DNA of 21,307 bases, from the IMG/VR virus record IMGVR_UViG_3300021138_000203, positions 1 through 21,307 of that record; one strand, given 5' to 3'. This DNA is from a virus. Under the pieces are notes generated by a model, which was not told the origin of the DNA, did no database searches, and saw only the letters and a program-made list of their open reading frames with translations. Made by a program: the position numbers and the translations under genes. This document shows positions 158 through 5,139 of the stretch, piece after piece. Within the stretch, counting starts at the first letter, position 1; each line of letters starts with the position of its first letter.

Positions 158-853
158 CTATGACTCCGACGCTAGGCCTGCTTCACCAGCGCCAGTGATT
201 GCACAACGACAGTTCGGGTGTCCTGGTGGTTGATCGTCGCTGAGGTCGTGTGGGTTGTCTGCTTCTTGGTCAAGGCACTCGTCGCACGCTCCGTCGTAGG
301 CCAACCAGTTGAATTGGGTGAAGCCCATCGCGTCGAGTTGCTCCGATGCGGCGGCGGTCTGCGCTCGGTTGGCTTCAGTTGTTGCGATCATGTCGGCTCG
401 GTCTGGGTTGTCAAGAAAGTCTCTGATGTTCCTTGAGATCTCGTCAACGCTTGAACCTTGGGCCAATCCATCGGATATGACATTTCCGATCACGCCAAGT
501 GTGGTGTCACTAATCCCTTGAATGACATCGCCCTGAGCGGCGAGAAGGTCGGCCAGTCCACCATCGGCGGTTTGAGCAGCTGCGGCGGCGTCGCCTGGCT
601 TCCACTTAGACCAGTCGGTTGATGATGCGATAGAGGCGGTGTTGGAGATGTTCTGAATCCCCTGCTGTGGGTGAACGTCACCGGTGGCTTTGATGCCTGA
701 GAGATAACCGGCTGATGAGACGTTTCGCAGGACTGACCCAAGGGGCTGAAGGTTCAGTGAGATGTTCTGAAGCCCAGTGACCTCGGCTTTGATCTTGGCC
801 TGCGCTCGATGTATGGCGGCGGTGATCTCAGTCTGAGAGATGATCTTGCTCAT
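158..853 (-). CDS. MuF-like minor head / head morphogenesis protein
   Basis: 231 residues counted from the first ATG. The C-terminal third is a classic Phage_Mu_F domain (PF04233 family): RADMIATTEANRAQ, then FNWLAYDGACDECLDQE, then the terminal HPNCRC motif with its conserved His and Cys residues (about residues 213-218). MuF proteins bind the portal and are packaged as a few copies in the prohead. The N-terminal half is helical with Ala/Gly-rich linkers. The ribosome binding site is poor: GAGAGG sits only two bases from the ATG. The same frame is open and start-less for 30 codons upstream, back to a poly-A tract in the portal gene, so much of this protein may be made as a -1 frameshift fusion with the portal (see findings). 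The first residues of the true protein may therefore lie upstream of this ATG. Confidence 0.88.
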   Translation of the reverse strand: MSKIISQTEITAAIHRAQAKIKAEVTGLQNISLNLQPLGSVLRNVSSAGYLSGIKATGDVHPQQGIQNISNTASIASSTDWSKWKPGDAAAAAQTADGGLADLLAAQGDVIQGISDTTLGVIGNVISDGLAQGSSVDEISRNIRDFLDNPDRADMIATTEANRAQTAAASEQLDAMGFTQFNWLAYDGACDECLDQEADNPHDLSDDQPPGHPNCRCAITGAGEAGLASES

Positions 854-894
854 GGCCTCTCGGATCTGTGGGCCGAAGTGAGAGATGATCTGAT

Positions 895-2892
895 CTAGGC
901 GGTCTGCTCCTGGTAAGTCACTCGGCGACCTGCCTGGATTGACTTTTTTTTTAGGACATCGGACTGGGCCTGCTCGTTGAGAACCTTGGCAACGTCAGCG
1001 TCGACGGTCTCAAAGACGAAGTCACGCCATTTGCCTGCGGCCTTACGTTTGGCCACGAAGGACTTGAACGACTTCATCTCCGCTTCGGTGGACTTCTGAG
1101 AGCCGACGTCTGCGGCCTTGGTCTCAACTGGAATCTCTTCGGGCTTTGGTTCTTCGGGCTTTGGTTCGTCAGGGATCGGCGATGCGATGGGTGCGTTGCC
1201 GACTGAGCCGCTGGTGTCGTCTGCACCCTCGGTGCCGACTTGGGCTGTAGTCTCGCCACTGCTGTCGGTTTCCAACATGCCTTTCAAGAAGGTGATGGCG
1301 TTACCAGCCACAATGAACGGCTCGTCGGCCTCTGGCATATTGTAAAGCGGTTGACCAAGTTCGGCTTGGACATCGTTCAAGGTTTTCTGACCTGAGTAAA
1401 GCGACATCTGAAGTGCCTGGGCCTGGTCAAGTTGTTGTTTCGTGGTGCCTTCATCTGAGAAGACGAACTCGGTGCCAAAGGTGCCACCCAGGAATCGACG
1501 GTTGAGTGAGTTGATGCAGTCGGCGATGAACTTCTCCAAAGGCTTCTTGCTCATAAGTTCGGCGTTGTCTTGCTCGCCTTCCTGCTGGCCCTTGCCACCC
1601 AATCCAGTTCGAGGGATTATGCCGAGTTGCGTGGGCTGAACTCCGAACATGGCAGAGACGCGCTTGATGATGAACTCGTCGTAGGTGTCCTTGTAGCGTT
1701 CGTCAATCGTTGGGGCGAACACTGGGTCAAAGGACTTAGGCAACATCTTGATTCGGTGGCGCTCGGCGGTCTGGCCTGTCAAGGTGTCGTTCAGTACGCG
1801 TTCGAGTGAAGCCAGTTTCAGGTGATCCAACTCGTCAGAGTCGGTCTTCATAAACGTGGTCGGCATCGTGCCTTCGGTGTATTCGGCCCTGAGCCACTGC
1901 TGACGTTCTAGGTAGAGCGTGGCCATTGGTATTGACATCTCGACAGAGGAATAACCGTAGGGCGACCAGGTGCGGCGGTTCTTGACGAAGTAGGCCAGTT
2001 GGTCTCTGATGTATTCACCGTCTGGGCCTTGGCCTGTGAAGAAGTCGCCATCGCTGTCCTTGCTGGCCTGGTACTCGCCACGAGGGAATCCCCACAGGAC
2101 TTGTTGGAAGGCTGGTGACGGCGCGTGGGGTATGTCACCACGATTGTCGAGCAGGGGCTTGATCGTGGCACCGTCGATGATGTCAAAGCCGATGACTTCA
2201 CGGCCAAGGTTGTAGCGAGGATAGATCGGCATGGCGTCGTAGACAAAGTGATTCCACAGGGCCTCGGTCAACCATTCGGCAAAGCCTCGGTCAGGGTGAA
2301 CGTAAGGCGCTTCCCAGAACTGCTTGAGTTTGGCGATCTCGTCACTGTATTGGTCACGCGCTATCTGGTTGGCCTTGGCGTGACCACAGTTGCGTTCTTG
2401 CATGATCTGTGTGATGGCCTGATCACTAACCGTGATCTCCCATTCGAGCCCAATCATCTCGGCGGTTCTGACTTCAATGCATCGGTGAACGATGTCGCAC
2501 TGCTCGGCCAGGCCCTTCAGGATCGCCCAGGGCGTGACTTGCTGAGTCAGGTTGAGGTTCCATGCAACTTCGTATTCGTACTTTCTCGGGAGCGCACGGC
2601 CAGAGTCGTCAAAGACTGGGTCAAGCGGTGCTGGCAGGTAGGGCATCGCTGGCCCCAACTGAGATCCGAAAGAGTCGGCAGGTCGAGGCAAGGGCATCGC
2701 TGGCGTGCCTGGGGTCTGAAGTAATCCCTGGCCGCCTCCGCCTGCGTAGCCCGATGGCATACCTGGCATTGACGGCACCACTGCACCACCAGCGGCGGCG
2801 TAAGGGTTGTTGATGGCCTTGGAGACCTCTTCAGCGATGAGTTTCGCCAGGTCTGCGTCAGAGGTTTTTGGCTTGCGATTCCAGATTGCCAC
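895..2892 (-). CDS. Phage portal protein
   Basis: 665 residues from a GTG start (2892), seven bases after the stop of the preceding membrane-protein gene and with a weak ribosome binding site. Portal proteins form the dodecameric ring at the capsid vertex through which DNA is packaged. Family features: a Pro/Gly-rich N-terminal tail (about residues 35-95), the segment RRTWSPYGYSSVEMSIPM typical of the portal clip/stem region, and SAMFGVQPTQLGII. A Pro/Glu linker (EPKPEEPKPEE) near residue 580 is encoded by a tandem 15-bp repeat. The C-terminal part (KRKAAGKWRDFVFE) resembles the region that precedes MuF in actinophage portals. The reading frame ends 15 codons after an A9 tract (K648-K650), which forms a perfect A AAA AAG slippery heptamer. 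A -1 shift there would extend the protein through MuF to about 911 residues. Confidence 0.93.
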   Translation of the reverse strand: MAIWNRKPKTSDADLAKLIAEEVSKAINNPYAAAGGAVVPSMPGMPSGYAGGGGQGLLQTPGTPAMPLPRPADSFGSQLGPAMPYLPAPLDPVFDDSGRALPRKYEYEVAWNLNLTQQVTPWAILKGLAEQCDIVHRCIEVRTAEMIGLEWEITVSDQAITQIMQERNCGHAKANQIARDQYSDEIAKLKQFWEAPYVHPDRGFAEWLTEALWNHFVYDAMPIYPRYNLGREVIGFDIIDGATIKPLLDNRGDIPHAPSPAFQQVLWGFPRGEYQASKDSDGDFFTGQGPDGEYIRDQLAYFVKNRRTWSPYGYSSVEMSIPMATLYLERQQWLRAEYTEGTMPTTFMKTDSDELDHLKLASLERVLNDTLTGQTAERHRIKMLPKSFDPVFAPTIDERYKDTYDEFIIKRVSAMFGVQPTQLGIIPRTGLGGKGQQEGEQDNAELMSKKPLEKFIADCINSLNRRFLGGTFGTEFVFSDEGTTKQQLDQAQALQMSLYSGQKTLNDVQAELGQPLYNMPEADEPFIVAGNAITFLKGMLETDSSGETTAQVGTEGADDTSGSVGNAPIASPIPDEPKPEEPKPEEIPVETKAADVGSQKSTEAEMKSFKSFVAKRKAAGKWRDFVFETVDADVAKVLNEQAQSDVLKKKSIQAGRRVTYQEQTA
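898..934 (-). promoter_or_regulatory. Stem-loop 8 nt downstream of the slippery heptamer
   Basis: On the transcript GGCAGGTC (934-927) can pair with GACCGCC (904-898), giving seven GC-rich base pairs with one bulged A and a 22-nt loop. The spacer to the heptamer is TCAATCCA, 8 nt, within the 5-9 nt typical of frameshift-stimulating structures. The stem ends exactly at the portal stop codon (897-895). Pairing was found by eye; no folding energy was computed. Confidence 0.55.
943..949 (-). promoter_or_regulatory. Candidate -1 ribosomal frameshift site (A AAA AAG) in portal gene
   Basis: On the coding strand the portal codons read CTA AAA AAA AAG TCA. The last seven bases of this A9-G run are the heptamer A AAA AAG in the zero frame, the most efficient bacterial -1 slippery sequence. 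The tract itself spans 944-952. The -1 frame continues GTC AAT CCA GGC without a stop into the MuF gene. A nine-A run could also act by transcriptional slippage. Confidence 0.68.
1138..1167 (-). repeat. Two perfect tandem 15-bp repeats in the portal gene
   Basis: The unit ttcgggctttggttc (plus strand) occurs at 1138-1152 and 1153-1167. It encodes the repeated EPKPE segments of a Pro/Glu-rich linker. Such in-frame repeats can expand or contract by slippage without breaking the frame. Confidence 0.9.
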
Positions 2893-2898
2893 TGAGGA

Positions 2899-3213
2899 CT
2901 ACTTCGTGATCTTGGCGACGGCTAGAGCGGTCTGGGCTTGGCGTCGAGTGGCGAAGTGAACTACTTGAGAAGCAGCTGCGGCGATGACCGATGCCGAACC
3001 GATGGCGGCCTGGACTGCGGCTGGCTCCTTGAAGCCTGGGTGGAAGATCACAATGATGGCGACAACGGCGGTTGCGGCGCTCGTTAGGTTGGCGACCCAA
3101 GTGTTCGGGTGCTTGACGATGGCCTGAGCATCGGCGACAACACGCTTCGCGCTGGCTATGGAGTCGATTGCCTTTTGTGCGTCGGCTGAGATTGTGGCTT
3201 GTACGTCGCTCAT
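2899..3213 (-). CDS. Small membrane protein between terminase and portal (holin-like)
   Basis: 104 residues from ATG 3213, which overlaps the terminase stop as ATGA and has GGAAGG four bases upstream. The N-terminal half is soluble and helical (MSDVQATISADAQKAID). It is followed by a hydrophobic segment near residues 50-68 (SAATAVVAIIVIFH) and a second, Ala-rich, moderately hydrophobic segment near 75-92, with a basic tail (FATRRQAQTA). Two membrane segments with a short loop is a holin-like layout. However, the lysis module lies far away in this genome, and small membrane proteins of unknown role are known between packaging and portal genes in actinophages. No family was recognised. Because it is coupled to the packaging operon it should be made late, with the head proteins. 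Confidence 0.7.
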   Translation of the reverse strand: MSDVQATISADAQKAIDSIASAKRVVADAQAIVKHPNTWVANLTSAATAVVAIIVIFHPGFKEPAAVQAAIGSASVIAAAASQVVHFATRRQAQTALAVAKITK

Positions 3214-4628
3214 GTGGCCTTCCTTTGCGTATTGCAGTTTCGACAAGACGCCTCTGATGGGTTCATAGGGTGTGAACATACGGTACACGCTGGCGCTATT
3301 TCTGCGAACCACCTGTCCGCCGAAGATCCGCGTGCTAAGTCGAGTTCGACAATGCCGTGCACCAACGCGTCGAGTCGGTCAGGTGAGACGCCACTGTCCG
3401 GCAACCACCCAGTCATCTGATCTTCGAGCGTGGGGAAGGTGCCGACGTGATGAATCCGGCCTTGCTCGTAGAGTGCCGATACCGGCTCGGCGCGTAATCG
3501 CTTCCCGACTTTGGCGTGAATCTTCCTGAAGGGTATGTGAGGAGCGACGGCGCGCAGGGTTGTCTCAATCAGGTCTCCGCCTTGGTTGGCTTCTGCCACA
3601 ATGGGGCCGATCTCGCCCCAGTCACGCCAGGCCTGGACTGCTCGGTGCGCCCATTGAAGCGGCGACTCTCGACAACTGCGGTCAGACAAGACATAGCCGT
3701 GACCGTCAGATCCTTTGCCAACGACCACAATGCCGGTCTCGTCGCTGTTCTCGCCAGTTGTGACGGCAGGGTCAATCGCCACCACGATTCTGACTAACTC
3801 AATCTGTGCTCTCGTCTTGCCACCGATGAGTTCCAAACCTGACAGGCCGTTGTCAACCTGGTCGTCTGGCAGGGCCTCGGCCTTCAAGAGATCCGGCGAG
3901 ACTCGATGTTGGTCAAGCAGCTCGGCTGTCCACAGTGCGCCTTCGACCTCCCAGATCATCTCGCCCATGAGTTCTTGTCGACCTAACCTGGTGCCTTCGT
4001 AGCGGTTCAGAATACTGTTGGCCATCGTCGGGGCAAGGTTTGAGAGGTTGTCGTAGGTGGTTCCCCGAGTGATCACCGTTGTCGGTTGCTCCATGATGCG
4101 TTTCAAGAGTTGCGTGGGTCTTGGCGTGGTCGCGATGGCGACTTGTGGCCGTTCTCCCAAGCGCAGACCAAACTGAGCCTGATCCCAGGTGTCCTCGTAC
4201 TGCCAGGCCGCCAACTCGTCGCACCAAATGAACTCATGCTGTGGCCCTCTCAACCTGTCGGGTTCCTCGGCGCTAAAGAGTTTGATCCGGCTCTTGTTCG
4301 TCAGAACGATCTCACCGATGGAGCGGTTGTAGTTCTCCAACATTTGATACCGGCGCAGTACGTTCAGGATTCCCGACTCACCTTCAGCGCAGGTGTCTCT
4401 GGCGTCGGCGTAGGTTCGAGCGATGACGGCGCATCGAGTGTTGGGTTGAAAGACGGCTTTGGCCGCAAGCCATTCGGCGCAGCTCCTGGTCTTGCCTGCT
4501 CCTCGACCTGCCAAGTAGAGCCAGGTTGTCCAGTCGCCTTCGGGTTCTAACTGCTCACGTCTGGCTGAGGCTTTGACCCAATCGAGACGCTCTGCGGCTA
4601 TGAGGTCAAGTGGCGCGACGCTTGGCAT
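3210..4628 (-). CDS. terL: Terminase large subunit
   Basis: 472 residues; the ATP-driven motor and nuclease that packages DNA through the portal. Walker A is GRGAGKT (41-47), Walker B is FIWCDE (133-138), and ATTPR (167-171) is the coupling motif. The RNase-H-like nuclease domain has VVAIDPAVT with D286, AEANQGGD with E346, and RLDALVHGI with D420, so all three acidic residues of the active site are present. The start overlaps the small subunit gene by 23 bases. Odd feature: after the usual C-terminal end, a short zinc-ribbon-like tail is appended with the pattern C448-x2-C451-x10-C462-x2-C465. This is not a standard part of the family. Confidence 0.96.
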   Translation of the reverse strand: MPSVAPLDLIAAERLDWVKASARREQLEPEGDWTTWLYLAGRGAGKTRSCAEWLAAKAVFQPNTRCAVIARTYADARDTCAEGESGILNVLRRYQMLENYNRSIGEIVLTNKSRIKLFSAEEPDRLRGPQHEFIWCDELAAWQYEDTWDQAQFGLRLGERPQVAIATTPRPTQLLKRIMEQPTTVITRGTTYDNLSNLAPTMANSILNRYEGTRLGRQELMGEMIWEVEGALWTAELLDQHRVSPDLLKAEALPDDQVDNGLSGLELIGGKTRAQIELVRIVVAIDPAVTTGENSDETGIVVVGKGSDGHGYVLSDRSCRESPLQWAHRAVQAWRDWGEIGPIVAEANQGGDLIETTLRAVAPHIPFRKIHAKVGKRLRAEPVSALYEQGRIHHVGTFPTLEDQMTGWLPDSGVSPDRLDALVHGIVELDLARGSSADRWFAEIAPACTVCSHPMNPSEASCRNCNTQRKAT

Positions 4629-5139
4629 CTAGTGCCTCCTCCAAGGCTTCGAGGATTCGACGCTCTCGGTCTGGGTCTACCTGATGAATCAGAATCTCTT
4701 CTTGGATCTTGGTGGGTGCGTTCAGTCCGAGGAGTCGAGCGCGAGCGGCGATGGCTTTCAGGATCTTGTCAACGGCGTCCATTCGAGCGCCTTCGTCGAC
4801 GACCACGTTGCCTTCGTCGTCTTTGACAATTTTGCCGGCGGCTGAAACTTTGGGCGGTGGTTTGGCAATAACGCTGTTCAGGTATCGCTCGGCGTTGTCG
4901 ATCTTCTCTAGTTCGATCTTCCTGACCTCTGCGGCTCCCTCGGTTGGCAGTTCGTTGACGGCTCTGGCAACCATGTCGTGTGCGGTGCCGACTGAACAAC
5001 CAAACTCGTTGGCGATCAGTTGGTAGGTGTAGCCCAGAGATCGCATATCAGCGGCCTTACGATCTTTGGCGATCTGGTCTGGCGTTCGTAAGAACTTTCC
5101 TGTGGTGGCGTGCTGGGCTGGAAGTTTTCCGGCGGTCAT
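4606..5139 (-). CDS. terS: Terminase small subunit
   Basis: 177 residues. It starts at ATG 5139 after GGAAAGACT and ends inside the large subunit gene. The N-terminal part holds a helix-turn-helix (about residues 25-62: KAADMRSLGYTYQLIANEF followed by CSVGTAHDMV) expected to recognise the packaging site. The middle is helical, and the C-terminal segment ALEEALDAKRRAT is a typical large-subunit-interacting tail. The length is normal for actinophage small terminases. Position immediately before the large subunit strongly supports the call. Confidence 0.88.
   Translation of the reverse strand: MTAGKLPAQHATTGKFLRTPDQIAKDRKAADMRSLGYTYQLIANEFGCSVGTAHDMVARAVNELPTEGAAEVRKIELEKIDNAERYLNSVIAKPPPKVSAAGKIVKDDEGNVVVDEGARMDAVDKILKAIAARARLLGLNAPTKIQEEILIHQVDPDRERRILEALEEALDAKRRAT

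Follow-up and report, generated by a model that had tools for sequence, protein, structure and literature searches.

The portal gene and the MuF head protein gene of virus record IMGVR_UViG_3300021138_000203, analyzed over its full 21,307 nucleotides (nt; 'the window'), most probably form a single recoded gene that yields a mix of portal protein with and without MuF. Based on sequence comparison, we put the probability of this reading at around 0.92. The portal is the DNA-entry ring of the virus head. Its gene lies together with MuF on the minus strand of this 21.3-kb record, and a slip to the -1 frame near its end would add MuF to the portal chain. Such recoding is not peculiar to the window phage; the majority of its relatives have the layout in mirror image, so that a slip would remove MuF. 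The features of the locus are:

895..2892, minus strand: portal protein, the zero-frame product of 665 amino acids, with a GTG start and a TAG stop at 895-897 (phrog_2662, phrog_12, Pfam Phage_portal)
943..952, minus strand: A9-G slip site, zero frame CTA AAA AAA AAG, with the heptamers A_AAA_AAA and A_AAA_AAG
854..943, minus strand: extension in the -1 frame, 30 codons without a start codon, from slip site to MuF (tblastn, conserved sequence; rate of nonsynonymous substitution, dN, below that of synonymous substitution, dS)
158..943, minus strand: MuF frame, 261 amino acids counted from the slip site, domain PF04233 (PF04233, E 2.5e-10; phrog_2662)
158..853, minus strand: MuF open reading frame (ORF) from an internal ATG that may serve as a weak independent start, with GAGAGG 2 nt ahead of it
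895..897, minus strand: zero-frame stop TAG, 15 sense codons past the slip site
893..939, minus strand: possible downstream stem, weak, minimum free energy (MFE) -15.6 kcal/mol, z -1.05; arms named in the initial annotation at 927-934 and 898-904
3210..4628, minus strand: large terminase, upstream in the packaging operon (phrog_979, E 2e-39)

The zero-frame product matched the profile phrog_2662 over positions 26-515 (E 2.4e-36), phrog_12 (E 1.6e-13) and PF04860 (Phage_portal; E 5e-7, under the curated cut-off). The MuF product, which contains the domain PF04233 (E 4e-10), matched positions 562-706 of the same phrog_2662. Since both match successive parts of one profile, phrog_2662 represents a portal-MuF fusion family, and its order, portal then MuF in one chain, is found in the window with the two parts joined only via the -1 frame. 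The gene adjoins that of the large terminase. It is a portal gene, and thus not a tail assembly chaperone gene located between major tail protein and tape measure. An AlphaFold model of the portal, made from an 11-row alignment, had a pLDDT (predicted local distance difference test) of 50 and was not used.

At the junction the portal zero frame reads GTC CTA AAA AAA AAG TCA ATC CAG, in which the A9 run spans 944-952 and A_AAA_AAG, the heptamer in the zero frame, spans 943-949, inside A9-G as the initial annotation had it. Its description of the frames was likewise borne out: the -1 frame from the slip site, VNPGRSPSDLPGADRLDQIISHFGPQIREA, is open for 30 codons and runs into MuF, the portal zero frame ends 15 codons past the site, and the MuF ATG at 853 is preceded by a weak Shine-Dalgarno sequence two bases away. 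No ATG, GTG or TTG was found in the -1 frame between the slip site and this ATG. One slip would yield a portal-MuF fusion of 650 + 261 = 911 residues. What marks a programmed -1 site, a zero-frame heptamer in an overlap that is open in the -1 frame, is thus present; the layout is the reverse of the truncating one of dnaX. Apart from A9, no homopolymer in the window exceeds a length of 6. The heptamer alone is not rare, as A_AAA_AAG was found once against 2.4 times expected by chance. Its frequency within the window was therefore discarded as uninformative, and its significance derives from conservation across relatives.

These relatives comprised 80 distinct loci with identities to the window down to ~23%, mostly from uncultured phages. 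In all 33 distinct loci where MuF has a frame of its own, this frame lies at -1 and never at +1, and in 29 of the 33 the overlap contains a heptamer. Heptamers of the form X_XXY_YYZ (Y being A or T) occur at 0.1% of portal-body codons, which amounts to a chance of ~3% per overlap. In the other four a truncating site precedes an inserted domain, and MuF follows as a separate ORF that starts at or near the stop. Exactly A9 was found in near-identical contigs from other samples (L002, L003, L005, L009), in L007, L039 and L040, and in the distant L244; a scan with a pattern allowing A6 to A12 recovered only A9. L007 (70% identical) and L039/L040 (~75%) have A9-G with MuF read at -1, but lack an ATG at the position of the window's MuF ATG. 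In L008, L048, L041, L045, L010 and L053 there is no A tract, and C_CCU_UUA occupies the homologous place, again with MuF in -1. Further split loci carry C_CCU_UUU (L063, L066, L074, L109, L129, L084, L196) or C_CCA_AAA (L079, L207, L209). The heptamer therefore swaps between A_AAA_AAG, C_CCU_UUA, C_CCU_UUU and C_CCA_AAA at one homologous place. Of the heptamer, spacer and stem whose conservation the initial annotation had asked about, it is the position of the signal that is kept, together with the -1 direction and the open frame; the stem is poorly conserved. Its proposal that recoding produces a fusion of ~911 residues is strongly supported in this way.

The -1 extension, predicted earlier from the open frame, shows protein conservation ahead of the window's ATG. 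Alignments (tblastn) of the extended MuF begin at residue 2-6 in relatives, a DKIVAHYxP-like sequence is conserved where L007, L039 and L041 have no ATG, and the extension has its homologue in the linker of portal-MuF proteins encoded by one ORF. Within the MuF frame dN is well below dS (dN/dS about 0.1-0.2 within the clade).

The existence of homologues with portal and MuF in a single ORF supports the fusion reading. In their linker we found C_CCA_AAA, rarely C_CCU_UUA, followed by a -1 stop, usually UAA. This truncating layout is present in 50 loci, with the stop mostly 4-9 codons on (4-5 codons in 40 of the 50). Fusing (29) and truncating (50) loci together, 79 of the 80 have a junction heptamer X_XXY_YYZ; L098, alone among the close relatives in lacking a canonical site, has C_ACA_AAA, which is one substitution from C_CCA_AAA, and retains the -1 stop. 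In ten close relatives C_CCA_AAA is followed in the -1 frame by a stop after 4-7 codons, in most of them ahead of an inserted domain. An Amycolatopsis prophage (L110) also has C_CCA_AAA, with the -1 stop 32 codons away, and this may be a chance occurrence; no other match was found in 396 genomes from the phylum of this prophage. The 79 sites, in combination with the two opposite layouts, suggest that the conserved product is the mixture of portal with and without MuF.

Codon usage points in the same direction. Among 83 conserved codon columns in the C-terminal half of the portal, the five most biased were Ile ATA, Thr ACT, Lys AAA, Asp GAT and Pro CCA, with ATA in 37 of 40 cases (usage 4%), ACT in 41 of 42 (22%) and AAA in 35 of 35 (30%). 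These columns make up the slip site, the codon with the -1 stop (Thr ACT) and an upstream element, and to judge from these counts protein constraint alone does not explain the bias at the putative signal. Conservation beyond protein constraint, the other mark of a programmed -1 site, is thus seen in the 79 of 80 loci, the heptamer swaps and the peak in codon bias. The upstream element, AGATAAC-N-GATAC, lies from ~13 to 1 nt before C_CCA_AAA in L014, L021, L054 and other truncating sites; it is strongly conserved, includes the rare Ile ATA and is not a Shine-Dalgarno sequence.

The truncating layout extends to cultured phages. In Sonali and Mufasa8, two Arthrobacter phages with ~23% identity to the window in the portal, the linker has C_CCA_AAA (MK411746 4354-4360 and MN586027 4347-4353, respectively), a -1 stop 9 codons on and, 8 nt downstream, a shared hairpin of 6 base pairs (bp). 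Gene 3 of Sonali is annotated 'portal and MuF-like fusion protein'. A slip at these sites would give a portal form of ~747 amino acids whose -1 end reads SAYPSVLEG in Sonali and STYPSLVEG in Mufasa8. The heptamer consists of rare codons, AAA encoding 3 of 35 and 4 of 36 lysines in the two genes, and only P-K of the peptide is kept. RefSeq labels gene 3 of Mufasa8 (NC_049478) 'MutT/NUDIX hydrolase', although it is a portal-MuF fusion. In a more distant set, heptamers were absent from 30,510 portal-body codons and occurred 22 times in 11,318 linker codons; 20 of 37 loci with MuF had one against 3 of 34 without (p 4e-5), some A7 matches in AT-rich genomes possibly being due to chance. L219 (C_CCA_AAA), L244 (A9-G) and L272 (A_AAA_AAA) add three independent -1 splits into MuF.

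In a quick portal tree with 80 rows there are at least 5 changes of layout and 10 of heptamer, and a single clade of all slip-to-fuse rows is rejected (p 2e-69); recombination at the junction would give a like pattern.

We propose that most passes through A9-G end at the zero-frame TAG and would give portal alone, and that a fraction slips to the -1 frame to give the 911-residue fusion. In the mirror-image relatives the slip would meet the early -1 stop and give portal without MuF. In either layout, portal subunits with MuF and those lacking it would be made at a fixed ratio; mixed portal rings would then carry a few covalently tethered MuF copies, the ratio setting their number. The minority status and stoichiometric role that the initial annotation had assigned to the fusion are compatible with this scheme and are likewise conjectural. 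At C_CCA_AAA, C_CCU_UUA and C_CCU_UUU the predicted slip must be ribosomal, because these sites are without homopolymers. In the window either the ribosome (-1 on A_AAA_AAG or A_AAA_AAA) or RNA polymerase (an extra A on A9) may be responsible.

The latter alternative, confined to the A9 clade, leaves the product unchanged, as a single A added to some of the mRNAs would join the frames; it competes only with the ribosomal half of our explanation, and we give it nearly even odds. Considering the WhiB-family regulator in the window (PF02467; 11760-12242, minus strand), the related Amycolatopsis prophage and the related Arthrobacter phages, the host would be actinobacterial. Such hosts usually have two lysine tRNAs, which should weaken A_AAA_AAG as a ribosomal site. 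The heptamer had been put forward as the strongest of its kind in bacteria, which is correct as a rule for E. coli and is tied there to the single lysine tRNA (PMC5009743). In Thermus, with two lysine tRNAs, dnaX undergoes transcriptional slippage on 9 As (PMC5009743). The published hallmark of such slippage is a run of 9 As whose length is conserved among homologues (PMC1088944), and it is found here, with the frame being restored by one added nt: the run is exactly 9 in the window and the eight other loci with A9, and within the portal-MuF family A_AAA_AAG occurs only in exact A9 runs. Against RNA polymerase speak the tree neighbours of the A9 lineages, which use C_CCU_UUA at this place, a site incapable of a transcriptional slip, and the two overlapping ribosomal heptamers that A9 itself contains. 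At the window's A9 the two modes are inseparable and about equally likely.

That portal and MuF are separate proteins, MuF starting by coupling at the ATG at 853 and the overlap being incidental, is very unlikely. The in-frame ATG and its GAGAGG are present in the window and its near-identical kin, but L007, L008, L010, L039 and others have no such ATG and still conserve the preceding sequence as protein. Many split loci have no usable MuF start near the junction, and in the L010 group the first 240 nt contain no start codon. Separate proteins would also leave the heptamers and the mirror-image layout unexplained. A shade less probable still is the view that C_CCA_AAA in the single-ORF relatives merely reflects a conserved peptide, with no recoding. 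DTPKG is indeed conserved in the nearer group, but the synonymous positions are frozen (ACT, AAA and ATA, as counted above), the distance to the -1 stop is conserved, and the Arthrobacter phages keep only P-K, with AAA at so few of the gene's lysines. A sequencing error, against which the initial annotation had cautioned, or a decayed fusion gene might be suspected from the homopolymer and the one-ORF relatives, but can be dismissed given the A9 shared exactly by relatives and by contigs of other samples, the -1 layout without any homopolymer in other lineages and the purifying selection on MuF.

Several observations weigh against a recoded portal-MuF gene. The stem that was proposed to start 8 nt downstream can pair (GGCAGGTC/GACCGCC), but is weak and poorly conserved, 28 of 200 shuffles being as good. 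No clear Shine-Dalgarno stimulator was found at the window site. The ATG at 853 could yield some unfused MuF in the window's closest kin, there are distant long-ORF fusions (e.g. L237, L241, L245) without a clear junction heptamer, and the loci are related, so that the counts are not independent events. Past the C_CCU_UUU sites a 6-bp hairpin, a possible stimulator, is clear at 7 nt; Sonali and Mufasa8 have theirs at 8 nt, and candidate stimulators are weak elsewhere. The C_CCU_UUU hairpin is 100% paired with one compensatory pair, which is suggestive only, as 69 of 500 shuffles were as good.

Frameshifting as such is well known, and in phages it concerns mainly the tail chaperones and some capsid and tail proteins. 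The lambda G/GT tail assembly chaperones resemble the present case in that a conserved -1 frameshift in a structural operon fixes the ratio between a protein and its extended form; here the gene encodes the portal, the extension is MuF and the reciprocal, truncating layout dominates. The closest parallel may be dnaX (tau/gamma), one gene with two products that share the N-terminus. In most cases a -1 slip in dnaX leads to an early stop, reversed layouts have been predicted and a transcriptional version with 9A exists in Thermus (PMC5009743, PMC1088944). This trio of solutions also appears in the portal-MuF family, which differs in the protein, the main heptamer (C_CCA_AAA) and the lack of a clear Shine-Dalgarno stimulator. 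In SPP1, gp7 (MuF) binds the portal with 1-2 copies per capsid (PMC5576092, PMC6316719); portal (gp6) and MuF are encoded there by separate genes and bind non-covalently, unlike in the putative fusion of the window. Single-ORF portal-MuF fusions, as in Sonali gene 3 and the Microbacterium clusters EA3, EA5, EA8 and EB (PMC7302621), have the same two domains in the same order. Those of Sonali and Mufasa8 are homologous to the window and are annotated as one full-length protein, yet the linker holds an unannotated candidate slip site; none of the sequence matches came from the Microbacterium EA/EB fusions. The possibility of a MuF frameshift was raised for 'false positive' VIP2 + MuF-like genes in PRFect (PMC10885494), a VIP2-MuF rather than portal-MuF case that came without comparative evidence. 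Literature searches among open-licence PMC papers returned no description of portal-MuF frameshifting, nor is it mentioned in the GeneTack and PRFect papers or the accessible part of the Atkins review. As far as sequences can tell, portal-MuF recoding thus appears to be widespread and, within the open-licence literature, previously undescribed.

Inserts between the slip site and MuF occur in L018 (6546-7961), L012, L100, L164, L203, L028 and L167; that of L018 is an ADP-ribosyltransferase (PF03496, E 5e-15) and that of L028 gave a weak GNAT-like match. L216 (4501-7422) carries a NUDIX domain (PF00293, E 4e-18) between the portal and MuF parts, and its C_CCU_UUU is followed by an immediate -1 UGA. 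Ten distant loci (L237, L239, L241, L242, L245, L247, L250, L253, L276, L286) have ~1.2-1.9 kb more coding sequence behind MuF and no clear heptamer. At the small-terminase position of the window (4606-5139, minus strand) the best PHROG was phrog_645, labelled 'RNase E' (E 2e-17), which probably reflects a labelling problem or else an unusual small terminase.

More tentatively, and at somewhat less than even odds, recoding at the C-terminus of the portal could be a general device to set the number of ring subunits that bear an internal payload. This payload would usually be MuF and, in several lineages, a longer extension with an inserted domain before MuF, evolution switching freely between adding and removing, and between ribosome and RNA polymerase, with the mixed product being kept. 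In L018-type loci the slip would then set the number of subunits bearing the inserted domain. How phages load just a few copies of a minor head protein into a capsid with one portal ring is not well explained, and a proportion of MuF-bearing portal set by the gene itself would, if true, answer this copy-number question directly. The prediction extends to two cultured phages, Sonali and Mufasa8, in both of which the annotation of gene 3 gives one product, and the portal product is probably mis-annotated in many actinobacteriophage-like genomes. The switching between opposite layouts and kinds of slip site for one outcome would constitute a rare natural experiment on recoding.

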